Source: Xenococcaceae cyanobacterium MO_188.B29
Lineage (GTDB): Bacteria > Cyanobacteriota > Cyanobacteriia > Cyanobacteriales > Xenococcaceae
Assembly: GCA_030065155.1 (NCBI GenBank)
Contig: JASJDI010000038.1
Location: 1 to 34,391 of the forward strand
Direction: 5' to 3'
Length of the DNA: 34,391 nucleotides
The notes beneath the pieces are model-generated. The model saw only the letters and a program-made list of their open reading frames with translations. It searched no databases and was not told where the DNA came from. This document shows positions 1 to 8,011 of this stretch, piece by piece (position 1 is the first letter of the stretch; each line of letters opens with the position of its first letter). The translations under genes and the position numbers were made by a program.

Positions 1-1
1 G

Positions 2-82
2 ACCTTAGGAAAACTCATTGCCCAGAAAGCCAAGGTTAGCCTGGGCGACCTCGCCGAGACAGTCTCGATGTCATTAGCCTGA
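2..82 (+). CDS. Possible 3' tail of an unidentified gene (partial)
   Basis: An open frame enters from the left edge and stops with TGA at 80-82, giving 26 residues that end in ETVSMSLA. It shows no recognisable domain and may be chance. If real, it is the end of a plus-strand gene converging on the recombinase cluster, 25 bp from the stop of the zinc-ribbon recombinase, and could be the gene next to the element's left end. Confidence 0.2.
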   Translation, partial: TLGKLIAQKAKVSLGDLAETVSMSLA

Positions 83-107
83 CTTTTTGTGGCGAGTCCT
101 CCCAGAC

Positions 108-2057
108 TTATTGAGAAGGTTCAGATTGCCAGGGTAAGAATTTGTTATCGGGATTGAGTAAAAGTTCTTGAAATGGTAAATCTACCTGTGCTATTTGTTC
201 TCTAGTAGGTGGTGCGTAATGCTGGAATGTAGTAGTGCTACTTTTATGGTCTGCATATAATTGTGCAGCTTCCATTCCATATTTAGTACGAACCTCTTGT
301 AAGCGACTAGGACGAGTAATACTACCAATAAAATGTGGTTTTTGTCCGTTAGCATCTAAAATATTTTCTTTTTCTATCAGCATCCGAATGATGCGAACCA
401 TTGGATTAATAGCAACATCAGTTTTTGGAGGGTGTGGTAGAGGTTTTATATTTGGAAAATCAGGATAAAAAGTAACCTTAATATTCCGAAAATGACAAAA
501 CAAATAAGAATAATCTTCACCGAAAACTTTTCTAATCCACTGCTGTTGTTCTTCTATTACTTTTCTAATCTTTCTACTTGCCAGTATTTTATGCCATCGC
601 TTTACTTTCTGTTGTAAAAACTTGATATACCACTTGCCATTTTCTTCAACTAAGCAATCAAAAGATAACTGACATACATCTCCTGGTCTGGCAGCAATAT
701 AAGCTTGAACTAAATAATGACGAGCAATAGGTTTAGGTATTTTATCTAAATGCTGTCTAATAGATTGACGAGTTATTTCATCTAACCAATCAGCATCATT
801 TTTACTAACTTTTAAGAAATCACGACTACGAATTAGGGAAGGAGTTTCTAAATCTAGCCAATCAAAAAAATCTCTTATACAGGCTAGTTTTCCGTTAATA
901 GTTATACTTTGATTATTTTGATAACTATCCAAAAATTGAATTATTGTATTTCTATTAATACTATTCTGGTTTTTAATATCTAAATCAGTAATTATTTTAC
1001 CAAGCTGCCTTAAAGCAGTAATTATTGCTCTTACCCTAGAATCTGAAGAAAATACCTTCGATTTAAGTAAATAATATAAATATTTTTTTACTTCCTGTTG
1101 ATACCAATAAGGATTTACTTCTTGAAAATTTAGTGTTTTTTGATAGGGGTTATCATAAAAATGTTCTAACTCCCAAATATCTTTGTCAAAAGAGAATGGT
1201 TGCAATTTATATTTATATTCTGTTTGACCTCTCACCCAACTTCCACCATGTACTGAATTAATATTAAAAATAATTTGGCAGAAGTAACATCTACAATTAC
1301 TATTTTTATTTTCTATCTTATATACCCATCCTTTTTGTCCATCGTGTCCAATGTCAGTACACAGAGGATTAGGGCATTCGATATTAGGAAGATATCTAGA
1401 TATATGAACTGGAACGTGACAAGTTAGATATGTGTAAACATCACAATAATTACAAGCTAAAGCTAAATTCCCAATTGAATTAGGTCTATAAAAATATTTA
1501 GTCAATTGACCTTTATTACAAACTGGACAATTATATTCTCCTTTATATTCTTTATGCCAATCTATTTTTAGTATTCCATTTAAGGTTTGATGCTGAGAAA
1601 TAGGAGAATACTTTAATCCCACTCCAGGTATTTTACAAGTTAAAAAAGTGTTTTGTTGACATGAATCACATCCAAGTGCAAGCTTGCAGGCAGCTTTTTC
1701 TCTATAAAATAATTTTTTAAGTATTCCTGTTTTACACTTAGGGCAATAATATTCATTGTTATATTCTTCTTTCCAATTAATTTTGAGTATTTTGTTTGAA
1801 GTCTGATGTTGGAAAATGGGTAAGTGTTTTTTTTGTAAACCAGAAATTCTTTGCGTCAAACAAGTATCTTTTTTGCAAGAATTACAGTTAAGACTTAGTT
1901 TACAAATTGTTTTCTCGCGCCGATGGAAACCTGTAATTTTTCCTACTTTACAATATGGACAGCAAAATTCACCATTGTATTCTTGTTGCCAATTTACTTC
2001 TAATTTACCATGTAAAATAGGATGAATTGAAATCGGTGGATATTTACGATTACTCAT
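108..2057 (-). CDS. Zinc-ribbon-array tyrosine recombinase (third gene of trio)
   Basis: This 649-aa protein has an unusual N-terminus: three related ~70-aa repeats (about residues 12-80, 84-150, 155-220), each with a CPxC pair followed ~20 residues later by a CxxC pair (C33/C36-C58/C61, C105/C108-C130/C133, C177/C180-C202/C205). A fourth, divergent Cys cluster lies at 228-260 (C228, C233, C255, C257, C260). This looks like an array of zinc ribbons for DNA or partner binding. The C-terminal ~220 residues fit a tyrosine recombinase: Arg457 in AARPGD, a Lys near 484-489, Arg585 in TRPSR, His604 in ADHKS and nucleophile candidate Tyr614 in FQHY. The first His of the HxxR box seems replaced. The ATG overlaps the end of the preceding gene by 8 bp. 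Fold assignment is inferred from motifs; the zinc-ribbon role is a guess. Confidence 0.75.
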   Translation of the reverse strand: MSNRKYPPISIHPILHGKLEVNWQQEYNGEFCCPYCKVGKITGFHRREKTICKLSLNCNSCKKDTCLTQRISGLQKKHLPIFQHQTSNKILKINWKEEYNNEYYCPKCKTGILKKLFYREKAACKLALGCDSCQQNTFLTCKIPGVGLKYSPISQHQTLNGILKIDWHKEYKGEYNCPVCNKGQLTKYFYRPNSIGNLALACNYCDVYTYLTCHVPVHISRYLPNIECPNPLCTDIGHDGQKGWVYKIENKNSNCRCYFCQIIFNINSVHGGSWVRGQTEYKYKLQPFSFDKDIWELEHFYDNPYQKTLNFQEVNPYWYQQEVKKYLYYLLKSKVFSSDSRVRAIITALRQLGKIITDLDIKNQNSINRNTIIQFLDSYQNNQSITINGKLACIRDFFDWLDLETPSLIRSRDFLKVSKNDADWLDEITRQSIRQHLDKIPKPIARHYLVQAYIAARPGDVCQLSFDCLVEENGKWYIKFLQQKVKRWHKILASRKIRKVIEEQQQWIRKVFGEDYSYLFCHFRNIKVTFYPDFPNIKPLPHPPKTDVAINPMVRIIRMLIEKENILDANGQKPHFIGSITRPSRLQEVRTKYGMEAAQLYADHKSSTTTFQHYAPPTREQIAQVDLPFQELLLNPDNKFLPWQSEPSQ

Positions 2058-3504
2058 GATTTTCTCCCTTCAAATTTTCTAGTTTTTTTAATCCTTGTAA
2101 TCTGGTTTTCAATAACCCTAATAAGCGATTAATTTCCGTAACTCTTCTCTCTTGTCCTGCTGTTTGTGCTTTTTCTAAATCTTGCTGTAAACGTTGAATA
2201 TCGCTTTCTAGTTTTGGTTTATCTTCTAATGTCACTCGATGATGGTCGCAACTCAGACAAGCGTAGCGATACTGACAATCTCCTAATATTGTGGGTCGAT
2301 GACATTCGCCCAATGGGGTACTAACTTTAAGTAGTTCAGCTAATCTTTCATATCTGCGCTTTCTTGGTTTGAAACCAGTTACACGACCGTACATATCGAC
2401 ATAGCCTTTAGTATCGGCTTCTTTCTCTAATCTTTCTAAAGAACGCTTGCGATAGTGAGGCAGCATATCTAACGAACCATGTCCCAAAACGGCAGCAATA
2501 TATTCATCTTTTGCTTCGCAGTAAGCCATTACACTAGCTTTAGTACGCCGAAATTGATGGCTTTTTAGATGAAATCTATTGCCGTATTTATCCTTTAAAT
2601 CTGCTTTTTCACTAAAGTCACGTAACCAAAGATGAATAACCGCATTAGAGAGTGATTGGGGCAAATAAACTGGTTCTATATCAAATCTTTCTCCTTGCGA
2701 AGCACCATCTAGATTTGCGGTAGAAGCTTTACAAAACAGCTTGTCAAAGTCAGAATTAGAACCCAATTGTTCATCTAAAAACTTTTGCTGCTCTCTGACC
2801 AATTCAGCCACAGACGAATGAATCTGGTAAAATCGCCAATGTTTGCGCTTTTGTACCCATCTCAGTAAAAACCATTGTTCCCCCTCTTTTTTAAGGCATT
2901 GACGGGGCATTCTGAGCATTTCCCCGATACGACATCCTAAGACAAGCTGTAGCCTAAATAGTCGTTCTAATGGCGGTGGAAATCGGTCAAAATTTTCATA
3001 AATCTGATGTAATATCTCCTCTGGAATCGTCTCAATTTGAGGTGCTTTCTTTTTGTATTTACGAGGTGTATAAGGTAGTCTTAGCCATTGTTCTTCAGCC
3101 CATAGTCGAGAAACGTAAGCTATTGTTGCTTGCCTGTTGTTTTTACTTCCAGTAGCAACGAATTTTTGTAACAGGGAATCAGTTATTAATTTTGGCTGAT
3201 TATAGCCTTCTGTCACTAGAAACTTATCAAACTGTTTTAAGTAATTAACTCTCTTGCTAACTGAGCTTAAGCTATCTTTTTCCCTAGTACTAGCTAAAGC
3301 TGTTAACTTAGCTAATAACTTGAGCCAAGGCAAGGAAAAATCTTCAAAGTAGATATTTCGAGTTCCCTTTATTCTGGATTCTTCTTCGGTATAACCCAAT
3401 TCTTCAACTGACCAAACATCCCGGTCTAATAAAGGATTATTAATCCATTCTCGTCCTAATTCTGACTGCCCAATTCTTTCCTGTAACGCTTCAATGGGTA
3501 ACAT
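2050..3504 (-). CDS. TnpB-like tyrosine recombinase (second gene of trio)
   Basis: A 484-aa site-specific recombinase of the phage-integrase fold. An N-terminal core-binding region (about 60-150) precedes the catalytic domain with Arg192 (LGCRIGE), Lys219/221 (QKRKH), the box H316-QFR319, His342 (LGHGS) and nucleophile Tyr351 (PHYRK). After the catalytic domain comes a short Cys cluster (C401, C410, C416, C419) and a predicted coiled coil (about 430-475), a layout that resembles TnpB of Tn554-type transposons. The ATG lies 1 bp after the stop of the TnpA-like gene and has a purine-rich Shine-Dalgarno (AGAGGAAGAAG) inside the end of that gene. All catalytic residues are present, so it is probably active. 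It likely works as one partner in a multi-recombinase complex. Confidence 0.85.
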   Translation of the reverse strand: MLPIEALQERIGQSELGREWINNPLLDRDVWSVEELGYTEEESRIKGTRNIYFEDFSLPWLKLLAKLTALASTREKDSLSSVSKRVNYLKQFDKFLVTEGYNQPKLITDSLLQKFVATGSKNNRQATIAYVSRLWAEEQWLRLPYTPRKYKKKAPQIETIPEEILHQIYENFDRFPPPLERLFRLQLVLGCRIGEMLRMPRQCLKKEGEQWFLLRWVQKRKHWRFYQIHSSVAELVREQQKFLDEQLGSNSDFDKLFCKASTANLDGASQGERFDIEPVYLPQSLSNAVIHLWLRDFSEKADLKDKYGNRFHLKSHQFRRTKASVMAYCEAKDEYIAAVLGHGSLDMLPHYRKRSLERLEKEADTKGYVDMYGRVTGFKPRKRRYERLAELLKVSTPLGECHRPTILGDCQYRYACLSCDHHRVTLEDKPKLESDIQRLQQDLEKAQTAGQERRVTEINRLLGLLKTRLQGLKKLENLKGENHE

Positions 3505-3505
3505 T

Positions 3506-4618
3506 CTATTCTTCTTCCTCTCTTGCTAAATAAGCATCTAAACTCATCTCATCCAGTACGTGAGAATAGATATCTTTTGTTGTGGCGATGGATTTATGAC
3601 CTAGTAATTGCTGCACATATTCGTCCATATAACCCGCTTGCAGCATACGAGTGGCAAATGTGTGTCTAAACAAGTGAGGATGAGCTTTGATACCAGTTCT
3701 ATCTCTTAACTGGTAAAACAAGTCATTTAATCGCGCACTGGTCATTGGTTTACCTGTATATTTACCATCCAAATTGACAAACAACATTCCATGTCCCTGT
3801 TGTTCTGCTTCGGATGGATATTCTTCTAATAGGTAAGCTTGAAATGTCTCCTGTATCTCTTCGCGGTTATGTAAAATAGGAATTTCTCGCTCTGTACCTT
3901 TAGCTGTAGCACCATTAGGATTGTCATCCCGTCGAACAATTCTAATTCTTCCTTTGACATCAAAATCTTGTACGTCAACTAAATGTAGCCCCAAGAGTTC
4001 TCCCCTTCTAACACCTGTTTCTCGTAACAGCATCACTATCAATCTGTCACGATAGGTGTAACAAGCATTAGCTAGTTGAACTACTTGTTCGTCCATCAGA
4101 CAACCAGGAAAAACTTTTGGTTCTTTGACTTTAATTCGCTTCCGTCTTTCGGGACTGCTTTTGACAATACCTCTTAAGAACCCACCCCGTTTACCCCAAC
4201 CGTGAGCTAGTTTAGTAAATTTCTTTTCATTAATCCTACCTTCTACAGCGTGGAATTCATACATCCCCTGAATAGCTGTAACTGCCTGATTAACGGTGCG
4301 TGGACTGCGTTTAGATACTACTTCTCTAACCTCTTCTGAGATAACTTCTACCTCTCCACCCAGAAGATACCAGTTAACAAAATCAGCTAACTCATTTAAA
4401 CCAACATCTTGCCAGTTAAGAGATTTGTATTCTAACCAATGCCAGAAATCTAAGAGCCGACAAGCATAGGTCATAACTGTATTAGCAGCTAATTGTCTTT
4501 TGCGACAGTAGTTTAAGTAGCGTTGTATCGGTTCTACTGGCAAACAAGTTTCTGTATCGAATACGCAACTAAATCTTTCCTCGGTTTGAGGGTCAATTGC
4601 TTTTTCTATCGTAATCAC
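3506..4618 (-). CDS. TnpA-like tyrosine recombinase (first gene of trio)
   Basis: A 370-aa tyrosine recombinase with the full catalytic set: Arg204 (TGVRRGE), Lys240 (TAKGTERE), the box H315-LFR318, His341 (LLGHKS) and Tyr351 (IYSHV). The N-terminal ~150 residues form the SAM-like core-binding domain. Length matches TnpA of Tn554 (~360 aa). The start is a GTG at 4618; an in-frame stop lies ~10 codons upstream and the next ATG is 48 codons inside, so GTG is the best choice although no strong Shine-Dalgarno is visible. It is the first gene of the trio, and its promoter must lie in the palindrome-rich region just upstream. Confidence 0.87.
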
Positions 4619-4636
4619 TTCTACTTTATGTAATTG

Positions 4637-4739
4637 AAGGTAAAATTACCTTACCACATAAATTGGGACAGTTGTTGTTGTTTTTTCTAAATTAAATAAT
4701 ATAATTATTTTGTTGTTATAAGGGCATTTCTCTAGAGAA
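4637..4739. repeat. Three short palindromes upstream of the recombinase trio
   Basis: Perfect inverted repeats are AAGGTAA-aa-TTACCTT (4637-4652), AAATAAT-ata-ATTATTT (4694-4710) and the uninterrupted TTCTCTAGAGAA (4728-4739). They lie 18-120 bp upstream of the GTG of the first recombinase. They could be operators for autoregulation or arms of a recombination site; the sequence alone does not decide. Confidence 0.5.
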
Positions 4740-5288: not shown

Positions 5289-7010
5289 ATGAGTATATCA
5301 GTTCCGCCCCGCTCTCGCGCTCAAGAATCTAGAGCAGCGATCGAGCGCATTTATGTAATTATGCGCCATCTTTTTGTCCGTGGTCATTACAAGCCAGGAG
5401 GGGTGTCTGGTTCGGCTTTAAGTGAAGCTCTTTTGACTTTACGACCAGAAATTTACGGTTCAATGGCTGATTCAGACAAAGTAGAACTGAATGGACTGGC
5501 TTATGTCAGGGCTCGATTACCCAGAGGAATTGAAAAATGTCGCTTTGTCCAACTGATTGCAGCAGAAGGCTACAATAATTCGGGATTGACCAAAATTGTT
5601 CCAGCTAAGCGTCGTCGCCATTGCTATCGGCTCGATCGAGAAACGATGCTGATCGAAGTGACTAGAGGACGTAGTGAAATTTATGATATTCTCACTCATC
5701 TAACTTTTCTGTACATCGAAGCTGACAAAATTAGAGCGCACGCTATGGATGAGGGTCATCCGACTCCAGAGTGGTTAAAGCTCGAAAAAATTGTCCTAGA
5801 GCAAACAGCTAAAGGAAGTTCCGTTTCTTCTTTAGAAGAAATCGAAGTTAAAGAACAAGCTATTGCCTATACTAGTACGCTGTTAGGACGCACTTTTGCC
5901 GAAACTCTGGAAGCCGAACAGCGGTTTCGTCAAGGAGAACCAGACAACAACGGTTTATTGTCCCTCGTTTACTGGTTAGGACGAGTGGCAATGGAAGAGA
6001 GGCAACAGAAGCAAGATCGGCAAATTACCTTTAGTTCAGCATTACGGGAAAGAATTGGTCATCATATTCATGGAGAAAAGTGGGCTACGGACGTCAAAGA
6101 ATTTCTCTGGAGGCAAAATTTGTGGCAGCGTCCCCTTCATATTATCAGTGCTAATCTACATAGCATTCTGAATTGTCTTTATGCCTATCCCGCTCTCAAG
6201 CAGAAAATAGCAGCAGAAGAAACCATGGAAGCTCTGGCTCGTCAACTCAGTTTGCCAGAAAATGCTCATCTCAATCAAGAAGTCCTCAAGTTGGCCCTCA
6301 AGAAGGGAATGTATTATCTCGAAGATCGAGCAGGGACAAATATTCACGTCCAGATTTTTGATACTTCAGAGTTACCTTTAGATTCACTCTCTTCAGAGTT
6401 AAAATTCGACCGAGTATTAGTGGAGGAAAAGAAGCCAGTTATAGTAGTGATGGATTATGCTTTTGGCGAGCAAGCATTTGAGCTGTTCGATGAATTACTC
6501 AAGCCTTATCAAATCGAAGGACAGTCAAAAAAACTTAATCTCCACTCGATTTCCGTTATGGGTAAGGCAGGAATCTTAGTGGGCAATAAGGGAGATTTAA
6601 TGATTCCCACGGCGCATATTTTTGAAGGGACAGCAGACAACTATCCCTTGGACAACGAAATGAGTCCACAAGATTTTCAAGGGGTAGGAATTCCTGTTTA
6701 CCAAGGTGCTTTATTGACTGTCTTGGGAACTTCACTTCAGAATGTGGATGTTTTAGATTATTTTAAAAGTTCTTCTTGGAATGTAATTGGCTTGGAGATG
6801 GAAGGAGCGCACTTACAAAAAGCGATTCAAGCAGCAGCGAAAATTCGCAAGAGTATCGATGAAAATGTCATCTTGCGCTACGTTTACTATGCTTCTGATA
6901 ATCCCTTAATCACTGGTAGGACACTAGCTTCTGGGAGTTTGGGTCTCACGGGGGTCAAACCAACTTATGCGATTTCCTTAAATTTTCTCCAGAAAATTCT
7001 CAGTTATTGA
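5289..7010 (+). CDS. 573-aa protein with nucleoside-phosphorylase-like C-terminus (DUF6909-like)
   Basis: The N-terminal ~330 residues are helical and very conserved-looking (RAAIERIYVIMRHLF; LRPEIYGS; TRGRSEIYDILTHLTFL) but have no function I can name. The last ~200 residues carry hallmarks of the PNP/MTAN nucleoside phosphorylase fold: GLEMEG at 501-506, equivalent to the ribose-binding MEG motif, and YYASDNP around 533-539, equivalent to the catalytic Asp region. From memory it matches the family called DUF6909, best known in Bacteroidetes; I cannot check this here. The ATG has no clear Shine-Dalgarno. It sits between a recombinase element and an IS66 remnant, which suggests acquisition by transfer. 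It is likely an N-glycosidase or phosphorylase of unknown substrate. Confidence 0.7.
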   Translation: MSISVPPRSRAQESRAAIERIYVIMRHLFVRGHYKPGGVSGSALSEALLTLRPEIYGSMADSDKVELNGLAYVRARLPRGIEKCRFVQLIAAEGYNNSGLTKIVPAKRRRHCYRLDRETMLIEVTRGRSEIYDILTHLTFLYIEADKIRAHAMDEGHPTPEWLKLEKIVLEQTAKGSSVSSLEEIEVKEQAIAYTSTLLGRTFAETLEAEQRFRQGEPDNNGLLSLVYWLGRVAMEERQQKQDRQITFSSALRERIGHHIHGEKWATDVKEFLWRQNLWQRPLHIISANLHSILNCLYAYPALKQKIAAEETMEALARQLSLPENAHLNQEVLKLALKKGMYYLEDRAGTNIHVQIFDTSELPLDSLSSELKFDRVLVEEKKPVIVVMDYAFGEQAFELFDELLKPYQIEGQSKKLNLHSISVMGKAGILVGNKGDLMIPTAHIFEGTADNYPLDNEMSPQDFQGVGIPVYQGALLTVLGTSLQNVDVLDYFKSSSWNVIGLEMEGAHLQKAIQAAAKIRKSIDENVILRYVYYASDNPLITGRTLASGSLGLTGVKPTYAISLNFLQKILSY

Positions 7011-7011
7011 G

Positions 7012-7044
7012 GTAACCATTTGCCTTCCCCCCCTCGAGCGATCG
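7012..7044 (+). repeat. Left terminal inverted repeat of IS66 remnant
   Basis: Begins GTAACCATTTGCC and ends CTCGAGCGATCG. It is the reverse complement of 7978-8011 apart from one base in the C tract. The inner part contains a HIP1 octamer. Confidence 0.85.
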
Positions 7045-7096
7045 CTACAAGGGTCAAAAATTGAAACTCGTGCTCCCATCGGGTATGCTATGTTTC

Positions 7097-7897
7097 ATGA
7101 GGCAACTTGACAAAAACGATCTAGCGCAGATGAATCGGGACTACTTCCAATCCCTGGAAAAGGAGAGATTGGTAAAAGTTGCTATTAATCTTCATCAGCT
7201 AGCGGTGGAGCAGTGGGAAAAGCTGCAACAAAATTCCCAAAATAGCTCTTGTCCGCCATCTTCAGACAATCCTTACCGCCAAGCAGATTTAACAGAGAAA
7301 GAGAGGACAGACCAAGAATCAACCGAGTCAGAGGCGAAGCTCGAAGGGCAAGAAATTTCATCAGCCCAAGAGGAAGAGAGTAGCCCAGATAAAGAGGACG
7401 GCGGTCAACCCCATCAGGACGACTCAAACAAGAGGAGAAGACCTGGCCATCAGCCAGGGACTCCGAGTCAATGGCGGAGTACTCCCCTAGTGGCTGAGGA
7501 AATCGTTCCCCACTATCCCTCGAATTGTGCCGCCTGTGGCCAGAACCTGAGTCATGGTGCCCCCAAGCCTTACATGGGTCATTACGTCCTGGAGCTAGAA
7601 AGAGAAGACGATAGATTCCGAGTCGTCTGTCAATTACACCATTACTATGAAGCTACCTGCGACTGCGGTCATAGCTCTCAAGCCAAGCCAGGAAAAGGTT
7701 ATGTTTCTGAAGTCGAAGGTCGGAGCAGAGACCTGAAGCTAACGGAATACGTATTAGTCGGACCGCTCTTAGCGACGCTGATTGCCAGTCTGGCTGTCCG
7801 CTACCGCATGTCGCGAGCCAAAATTCAGGAATTCTTGAGGGACTGGGTAGCTACGGAGTTAGGAATTGGCACGATTGACCGCTGCGTTCAAACATAA
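7097..7897 (+). pseudogene. IS66-family transposase, truncated before the DDE domain
   Basis: An N-terminal Leu/Gln-rich helix (ELHQLA-like, with NSQNSSCPPSSDNP) leads to a low-complexity acidic linker, then RRPGHQPGTP, a zinc-finger-like region with two CxxC pairs (CAACGQ; CDCGH), and the start of the central domain ending in IGTIDRCVQT before a stop. Complete IS66 transposases run to about 450-520 aa and carry the DDE residues in the missing part, so this copy cannot transpose on its own. The frame is open from a TTG at 7061; ATG 7097 fits the family N-terminus best. The 80 bp after the stop contain an imperfect inverted repeat (7899-7911 with 7945-7957, 12 of 13 bases), perhaps marking the deletion junction. 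Confidence 0.8.
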
Positions 7898-7977
7898 CTA
7901 ACTTCACCAGCCCTCTCTGTGTCAGCCTTTTCGGTTCTGAGGATGCTGCTGAAGTTAATTCTGCCTGCTTCCAAGCT

Positions 7978-8011
7978 CGATCGCTCGAGGGGGGGGAAGG
8001 CAAATGGTTAC
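7978..8011 (+). repeat. Right terminal inverted repeat of IS66 remnant
   Basis: Reverse complement of 7012-7044 with one additional G in the G tract; ends GGCAAATGGTTAC. Defines the right boundary of the remnant. Confidence 0.85.

Follow-up and report, generated by a model that had tools for sequence, protein, structure and literature searches.

How do transposons that use site-specific recombinases change their target? The question is raised by three adjacent tyrosine recombinase genes at one end of a contig of 34,391 nucleotides from Xenococcaceae cyanobacterium MO_188.B29 (JASJDI010000038.1; C60 in our numbering); the entire contig is referred to below as the window. After comparison with relatives of this locus, we consider it probable that the trio represents the 5' portion of a site-specific transposon of the Tn554/Tsy type, in which the target is changed through the exchange of two of the three genes, B and C.

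The three genes lie on the minus strand. Gene A (3506..4618) encodes a TnpA-like tyrosine recombinase of 370 aa; gene B (2050..3504) encodes a TnpB-like tyrosine recombinase of 484 aa with a C-terminal Cys cluster and a probable coiled coil; gene C (108..2057), delimited from its ORF and from the relatives, encodes a zinc-ribbon tyrosine recombinase of 649 aa and lacks its 3' end. The initial annotation described three coupled recombinase genes, and its ORF coordinates and lengths, the 8-bp overlap of C and B and the 1-bp gap between B and A are all reproduced. Pfam phage-integrase and/or SAM-like domains match A, B and C, the catalytic-domain match of the 649-aa protein being weak (E 0.0039, under the curated cut-off). 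Tn554-type TnpA aligns with A over nearly the full length at about 31% identity (152-154 bits), and Tn554-type TnpB aligns with B and also with C. Since both B and C resemble Tn554 TnpB, the best reading of C is that of a TnpB paralogue with a zinc-ribbon array, and so of an additional TnpB-like recombinase.

The array of C is present as originally described: three repeats of about 70 aa, each containing two Cys pairs, are followed by a fourth Cys cluster. The zinc-ribbon-like modules occupy, on the minus strand, positions 1833..2033 (residues ~9-75), 1617..1817 (~81-147) and 1404..1601 (~153-218), and the fourth cluster 1260..1382 (~226-266); then come a SAM-like core-binding domain (828..1109, residues ~317-410) and the catalytic domain (198..785, residues ~425-620). 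Conservation of the Cys pairs had been set as a test beforehand: in the alignment of 17 proteins (that of the window and 16 relatives), Cys 177, 180, 202 and 205 of the last module and Cys 228, 233, 257 and 260 of the fourth cluster are kept in 17/17. The same is true of R457, K484, R582, H604 and Y614. Another residue takes the place of the usual His in HxxR, and for this reason the recombinase activity of C is likely but not certain.

The length of the array varies. Counted from Cys positions, it is readable in 35 of the 39 loci with C, with one module in 15, two in 10, three in 4 and four in 6; the array of L103 has a single CxxC per module, and as many as five ribbons occur in sub-family 2, whose identity to C is about 25%. 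In L058 and L060, the two modules match the third and fourth of the L031 type, which has four. The Pfam zinc-ribbon model PF23451 matches a four-module relative (E 2.4e-6), and short beta strands of the ribbon type are predicted for the last module (mean pLDDT 71.6). Confidence in the structure models is low (mean pLDDT 57.6 and 71.6); the full model was too poor for a usable fold search, and a search with the sub-model ranked zinc domains best in a second look (ATCase regulatory chain, Z 3.8; Rpb9, Z <=3.2), which is too weak to count. A sequence search of solved structures gave no match.

The copy in the window is incomplete. Bases 1..122 (minus strand) recur 100% identical in three more contigs of the same genome, beside unrelated DNA and with a sharp edge (one of the three further matches spans 101 bases), and we regard them as an insertion-sequence-like repeat. 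Because of this sharp-edged recurrence beside unrelated DNA, we read the operon as interrupted after C and the contig as ending inside the repeat; as a consequence, the C ORF ends about 108 residues early compared with the relatives, where the extra C-terminal residues comprise a Cys cluster and a coiled coil. Judged by its sequence, the window copy is damaged, being cut off after C, and it is probably inactive. The left end of the element occupies 4619..4721 (minus strand), with the border at 4721 (TTATAACAACAA...). A second copy of this left end, with the start of tnpA, closes contig C246 of the same genome (G000:C246:15932-16068, L126); it is identical over the ~136 bases present and lies at a site unrelated to that of the window, which suggests recent movement of the window element. 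Relatives in the same genome are also found on C8 (A 91%, B 66%, C 53%) and C130. No relative matches across the junction to reveal an empty site for the window element; the right flank is missing in the window. A gene of the DUF6909 family adjoins the element (5289-7010). Further on, a perfect 18-nt inverted repeat at 7027-7995 surrounds an ORF (7061-7897) matching DUF6444 and, weakly, IS66 transposase; this is probably a small insertion sequence.

The relatives carry a fourth gene, D, which belongs to the DUF6262 family (PF19776; E 4e-11 and 2e-12), the Pfam family of Tn554 TnpC, and lies downstream of C, overlapping it. In named plasmids of Nostoc, Anabaena and Brasilonema the order is A, B, C, an overlapping or close DUF6262 gene and then a gene for a WGR protein; in relatives of the window lineage it is A, B, C, D, usually followed by a DnaB-like helicase gene. 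All four genes are present in 30 of 41 distinct loci, a count that omits duplicates (GTDB and named copies; L082, L086, L088; L099-L102, L108) and the fragments L092-L095. The other 11 (the window, L045, L055, L056, L060, L068, L076, L078, L080, L084, L104) look truncated, whether by the end of a contig or record, by an insertion or by decay. The co-occurrence of homologues of the 649-aa protein with A and B, which the initial annotation treated as decisive, is therefore found, and its view of a three-recombinase transposon related to Tn554 stands, three recombinase genes being present in the complete loci.

The DnaB-like helicase is common after D (L036-L043, L046, L071, L087, L091); in L079 it has the Pfam DnaB N and C domains, and the copy in L006 is internally deleted. 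This companion may conceivably have a role in replication. Three elements that sit in a C5 cytosine methylase gene (L072, L074, L075) have a methylase ORF of their own, with 441 codons open, between D and the DnaB-like gene, as if the carried methylase compensated for the broken target.

Sequences upstream of tnpA agree up to TTATAACAACAA, or TATATAGACAAC for the Nostoc type; immediately beyond it they part, the flanks being unrelated. The right ends terminate in a TATAA-like sequence. Where both borders were read, the elements are 5.2-7.5 kb long. A 6-bp border repeat is exact in 6/17 of them, has one mismatch in 3/17 and is absent as drawn in 8/17; in L038, one of the repeat-free elements, it appears if one border is shifted by 2 nt.

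Judged from the flanks, the insertions lie inside genes. The targets include genes for an HNH endonuclease (annotation and HNH_3, E 3e-6), a C5 cytosine methylase (dcm, E 3e-12), TnpA of sub-family 2 (the N-terminal half up to the catalytic-Arg region is in the flank), TnpB of the IS605 type and an rve/Mu-type transposase (weak matches), as well as UvrD-type helicase, transglutaminase-like and dynamin-like genes, APH-like and N6-methylase genes (matches just under the curated cut-off) and a "SIKLDS" gene (SIKL), of which uninterrupted homologues exist; comM is absent among the recognised target genes. More than one locus of differing make-up is found at only four targets: HNH (12 loci), dcm (3), TnpA (2) and SIKL (3). 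The SIKL loci were joined via the uninterrupted homologues; in the dcm group, L091 ends 4 bases from the border and was assigned by its proteins and those bases. Our reading of the junction residues is that the exact insertion sites are conserved, often catalytic, motifs.

Several copies at different sites of one genome are observed (L081/L082/L088). At L044:5280-5294, an element of the window type lies inside the tnpA of a sub-family-2 element, that is, a transposon targets the recombinase gene of another transposon. In one Gloeomargaritales lineage (L081, L105, L106), the sites are in IS605-type TnpB genes versus an unrelated methyltransferase gene, and the junction codons alone are similar; this suggests recognition of DNA, not of a gene family. 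A contig labelled Crocinitomicaceae (L076) carries an element of the cyanobacterial type and is possibly misbinned. A scan of IMG/VR with A gave no match, and among phage records two from Listeria alone were found, at 36% coverage.

The main observation is that elements with a common target have B and C in common, not A and D. The target groups were named from the flanks before the trees were built. The trees are quick searches without bootstrap, their support being given as SH-aLRT; those of A and B cover 34 loci (L080, L083, L084, L106 and loci without both genes are omitted), and that of C omits L104, L106, short fragments and the arrays. Each of the four target groups forms a clade in the B tree (HNH 96, the others 100). 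In the C tree, built without the array, the support is 86 for HNH and 100 for each of dcm, TnpA and SIKL (L043/L055). For A, AU tests reject an HNH clade (p 4.3e-5) and a SIKL clade (p 0.030), and the TnpA-target pair is not rejected (p 0.125); for D, the HNH clade (2.4e-5) and the TnpA clade (0.010) are rejected. The dcm group is a clade in every tree and is uninformative.

Comparisons by segment agree with the trees. The two elements in TnpA (L044/L077) match at 84% in B, 68 in the last zinc-ribbon module, 73 in the core-binding domain and 87 in the catalytic domain, against best values of 68, 55, 60 and 77 between either of them and elements with other targets; their A (79) and D (72) give ordinary values. 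In this comparison L056, L080, L083 and L084 were scored as background though most are in the HNH site, which works against our reading. In the SIKL pair L043/L068, B matches at 99% and the last module at 93%, versus 86% for A; the A of L068 is nearest to that of the window (91%). At the DNA level, these two agree at 71-85% through most of tnpA and at 97-100% from the tnpA 3' end through B and C, so that the identity switches (~78% to 97-100%) at the A/B border. L071 and L078 have an A of the window lineage, yet they occupy the HNH site; their B groups with that of Nostoc HNH elements (96), as does the C of L071 (86). L036 and L037 count against our reading: their C proteins are similar (81-83% in the last module), and their right flanks are alike while the left ones are not.

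These comparisons show, at the level of sequence, that B and C move between elements as one cassette, independent of A and D, and track the target. Given that same-target elements share B and C rather than A and D, B and C probably read the target and A and D the ends. The suggestion of the initial annotation that the large recombinase sets target choice stands in so far as C tracks the target; it does not stand for C alone, for the target tracks the TnpB homologue B too. Since B and C always travel together, their separate shares are inseparable. The number of modules as the sole target code is rejected: C proteins with two modules (L058, L060) and with four (L031 type) share the HNH site, so module number is not equivalent to specificity.

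A mechanism can be proposed by analogy with Tsy, where a zinc-finger recombinase binds the target. A and D would bind the two ends of the element, and we infer that the element forms a circle; B and C would occupy the target core, on its two arms, and the predicted zinc ribbons of C would extend the contact; strand exchange would then take place across a 6-bp spacer. We presume a division of labour between B and C. Such a scheme, with A/D on the joined ends, B/C on the target arms and a 6-bp exchange, is likely. An element that gained a new B-C cassette would be retargeted to conserved codons of another gene family. We propose more tentatively, and with some doubt, that this is a naturally reprogrammable family, in which a constant A/D chassis receives exchangeable B-C cassettes, each homing to one motif of one gene family by means of a modular zinc-ribbon reader that gains and loses modules.

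Other explanations have to be weighed against target change through B-C exchange. B alone could set the target, with C and its ribbons a structural or catalytic partner carried by linkage; B is indeed no worse than C at telling the target groups apart (HNH 96 versus 86), and arrays range from 1 to 4 modules without a matching change of target (L058 versus L031). We find this unlikely, considering that the array and the core-binding domain are the most variable parts of C and their nearest neighbours follow the target, and that the target binder of Tsy, according to PMC10293859, is the zinc-finger recombinase. Alternatively, no retargeting takes place and the shared target is the cause of the similarity in B and C, through gene conversion between elements meeting at one site. 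In its favour, some elements are nested or lie side by side (L044), and there are clear signs that elements recombine with one another; however, conversion would not leave A and D untouched in every case, nor stop near the same gene borders, and the carriers are different genomes. Different A/D chassis would moreover need to have had one specificity beforehand, and we consider this explanation improbable.

The locus could be an immobile remnant or an ordinary phage-type integrase cluster, and the window copy is indeed truncated and possibly dead. Several copies at different sites per genome (L081/L082/L088, and the second left end in the genome of the window), the sharp ends and the 6-bp repeats make this very hard to accept. 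The proposal of a three-gene transposon in which a large DNA-reading recombinase stands in for TnpC, made in the initial annotation, agrees with the lack of a TnpC-like ORF in the window itself; but the window ends in a repeat after C, and in the four-gene relatives a DUF6262 gene of the TnpC family follows C and overlaps its end, which rules out the replacement there and leaves it next to no credibility.

If target change through B-C exchange is correct, nature has done a swap experiment several times, with differing chassis and the same B-C pair leading to the same site. Target reading by B and C becomes directly testable, and the matched panel of proteins and sites allows a search for a zinc-ribbon reading rule; retargetable DNA integration may follow.

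That zinc-finger recombinases select targets is already known: in Tsy, PMC10293859 reports experimental evidence that the zinc-finger tyrosine recombinase TnsF is the target selector, and that the activities of both recombinases are needed. Natural swaps of a B-C cassette look unreported in the open-licence literature of PMC; full-text searches of this collection, outside of which most subscription papers and all preprints fall, led to the GInt, strand-biased circularizing element, RIT/Tn554 and Tsy papers, and among the matches listed and their passages none described a four-gene, three-recombinase, zinc-array element or such swaps. By the description of Tsy in PMC10293859, our elements resemble it in being tyrosine-recombinase transposons with one recombinase bearing N-terminal zinc fingers (predicted here) and a small partner (an HTH protein in Tsy), in inserting at codons of a conserved motif (Walker B of comM in Tsy) and in having no long terminal repeats. 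They differ from the Tsy described there, which has one YRec and a small HTH protein, in two further recombinases (A, B) and a DUF6262 protein, in 1-4 modules (as many as five ribbons in sub-family 2), in many target gene families without comM, and in the swapping of B and C between elements; C and TnsF were compared by description.

RIT elements likewise have three adjacent, overlapping tyrosine recombinase genes; by the description in the accessible part of PMC3414803, the zinc array and the DUF6262 partner distinguish our elements from them. Strand-biased circularizing elements (intA-tfp-intB-srap) share the four-gene core, the TnpC-like fourth protein and perhaps the 6-bp footprint; according to PMC10214605, Tfp is without the catalytic motif, whereas C keeps R, K, R, H and Y. 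GInt islands (ginABCD; PMC5385486) also combine three integrases with a small fourth protein, and all four are needed. GinC, however, is without the first Arg, whereas R457 is invariant here (17/17); GInt cargo is 2.5-70 kb, versus 5-7.5 kb for these entire elements; and GInt attL can overlap a gene end with the product unaltered, whereas our elements cut inside genes. As to Tn554 (TnpA, TnpB, TnpC), A is a homologue of TnpA, B and C are homologues of TnpB, and D is a member of the TnpC family DUF6262; the 6-bp border repeats found in part of our set may be a further likeness. Unlike these elements with three recombinases, Tn554 has two and no zinc-ribbon array. The family also links Tn554, Tsy and the three-integrase elements.
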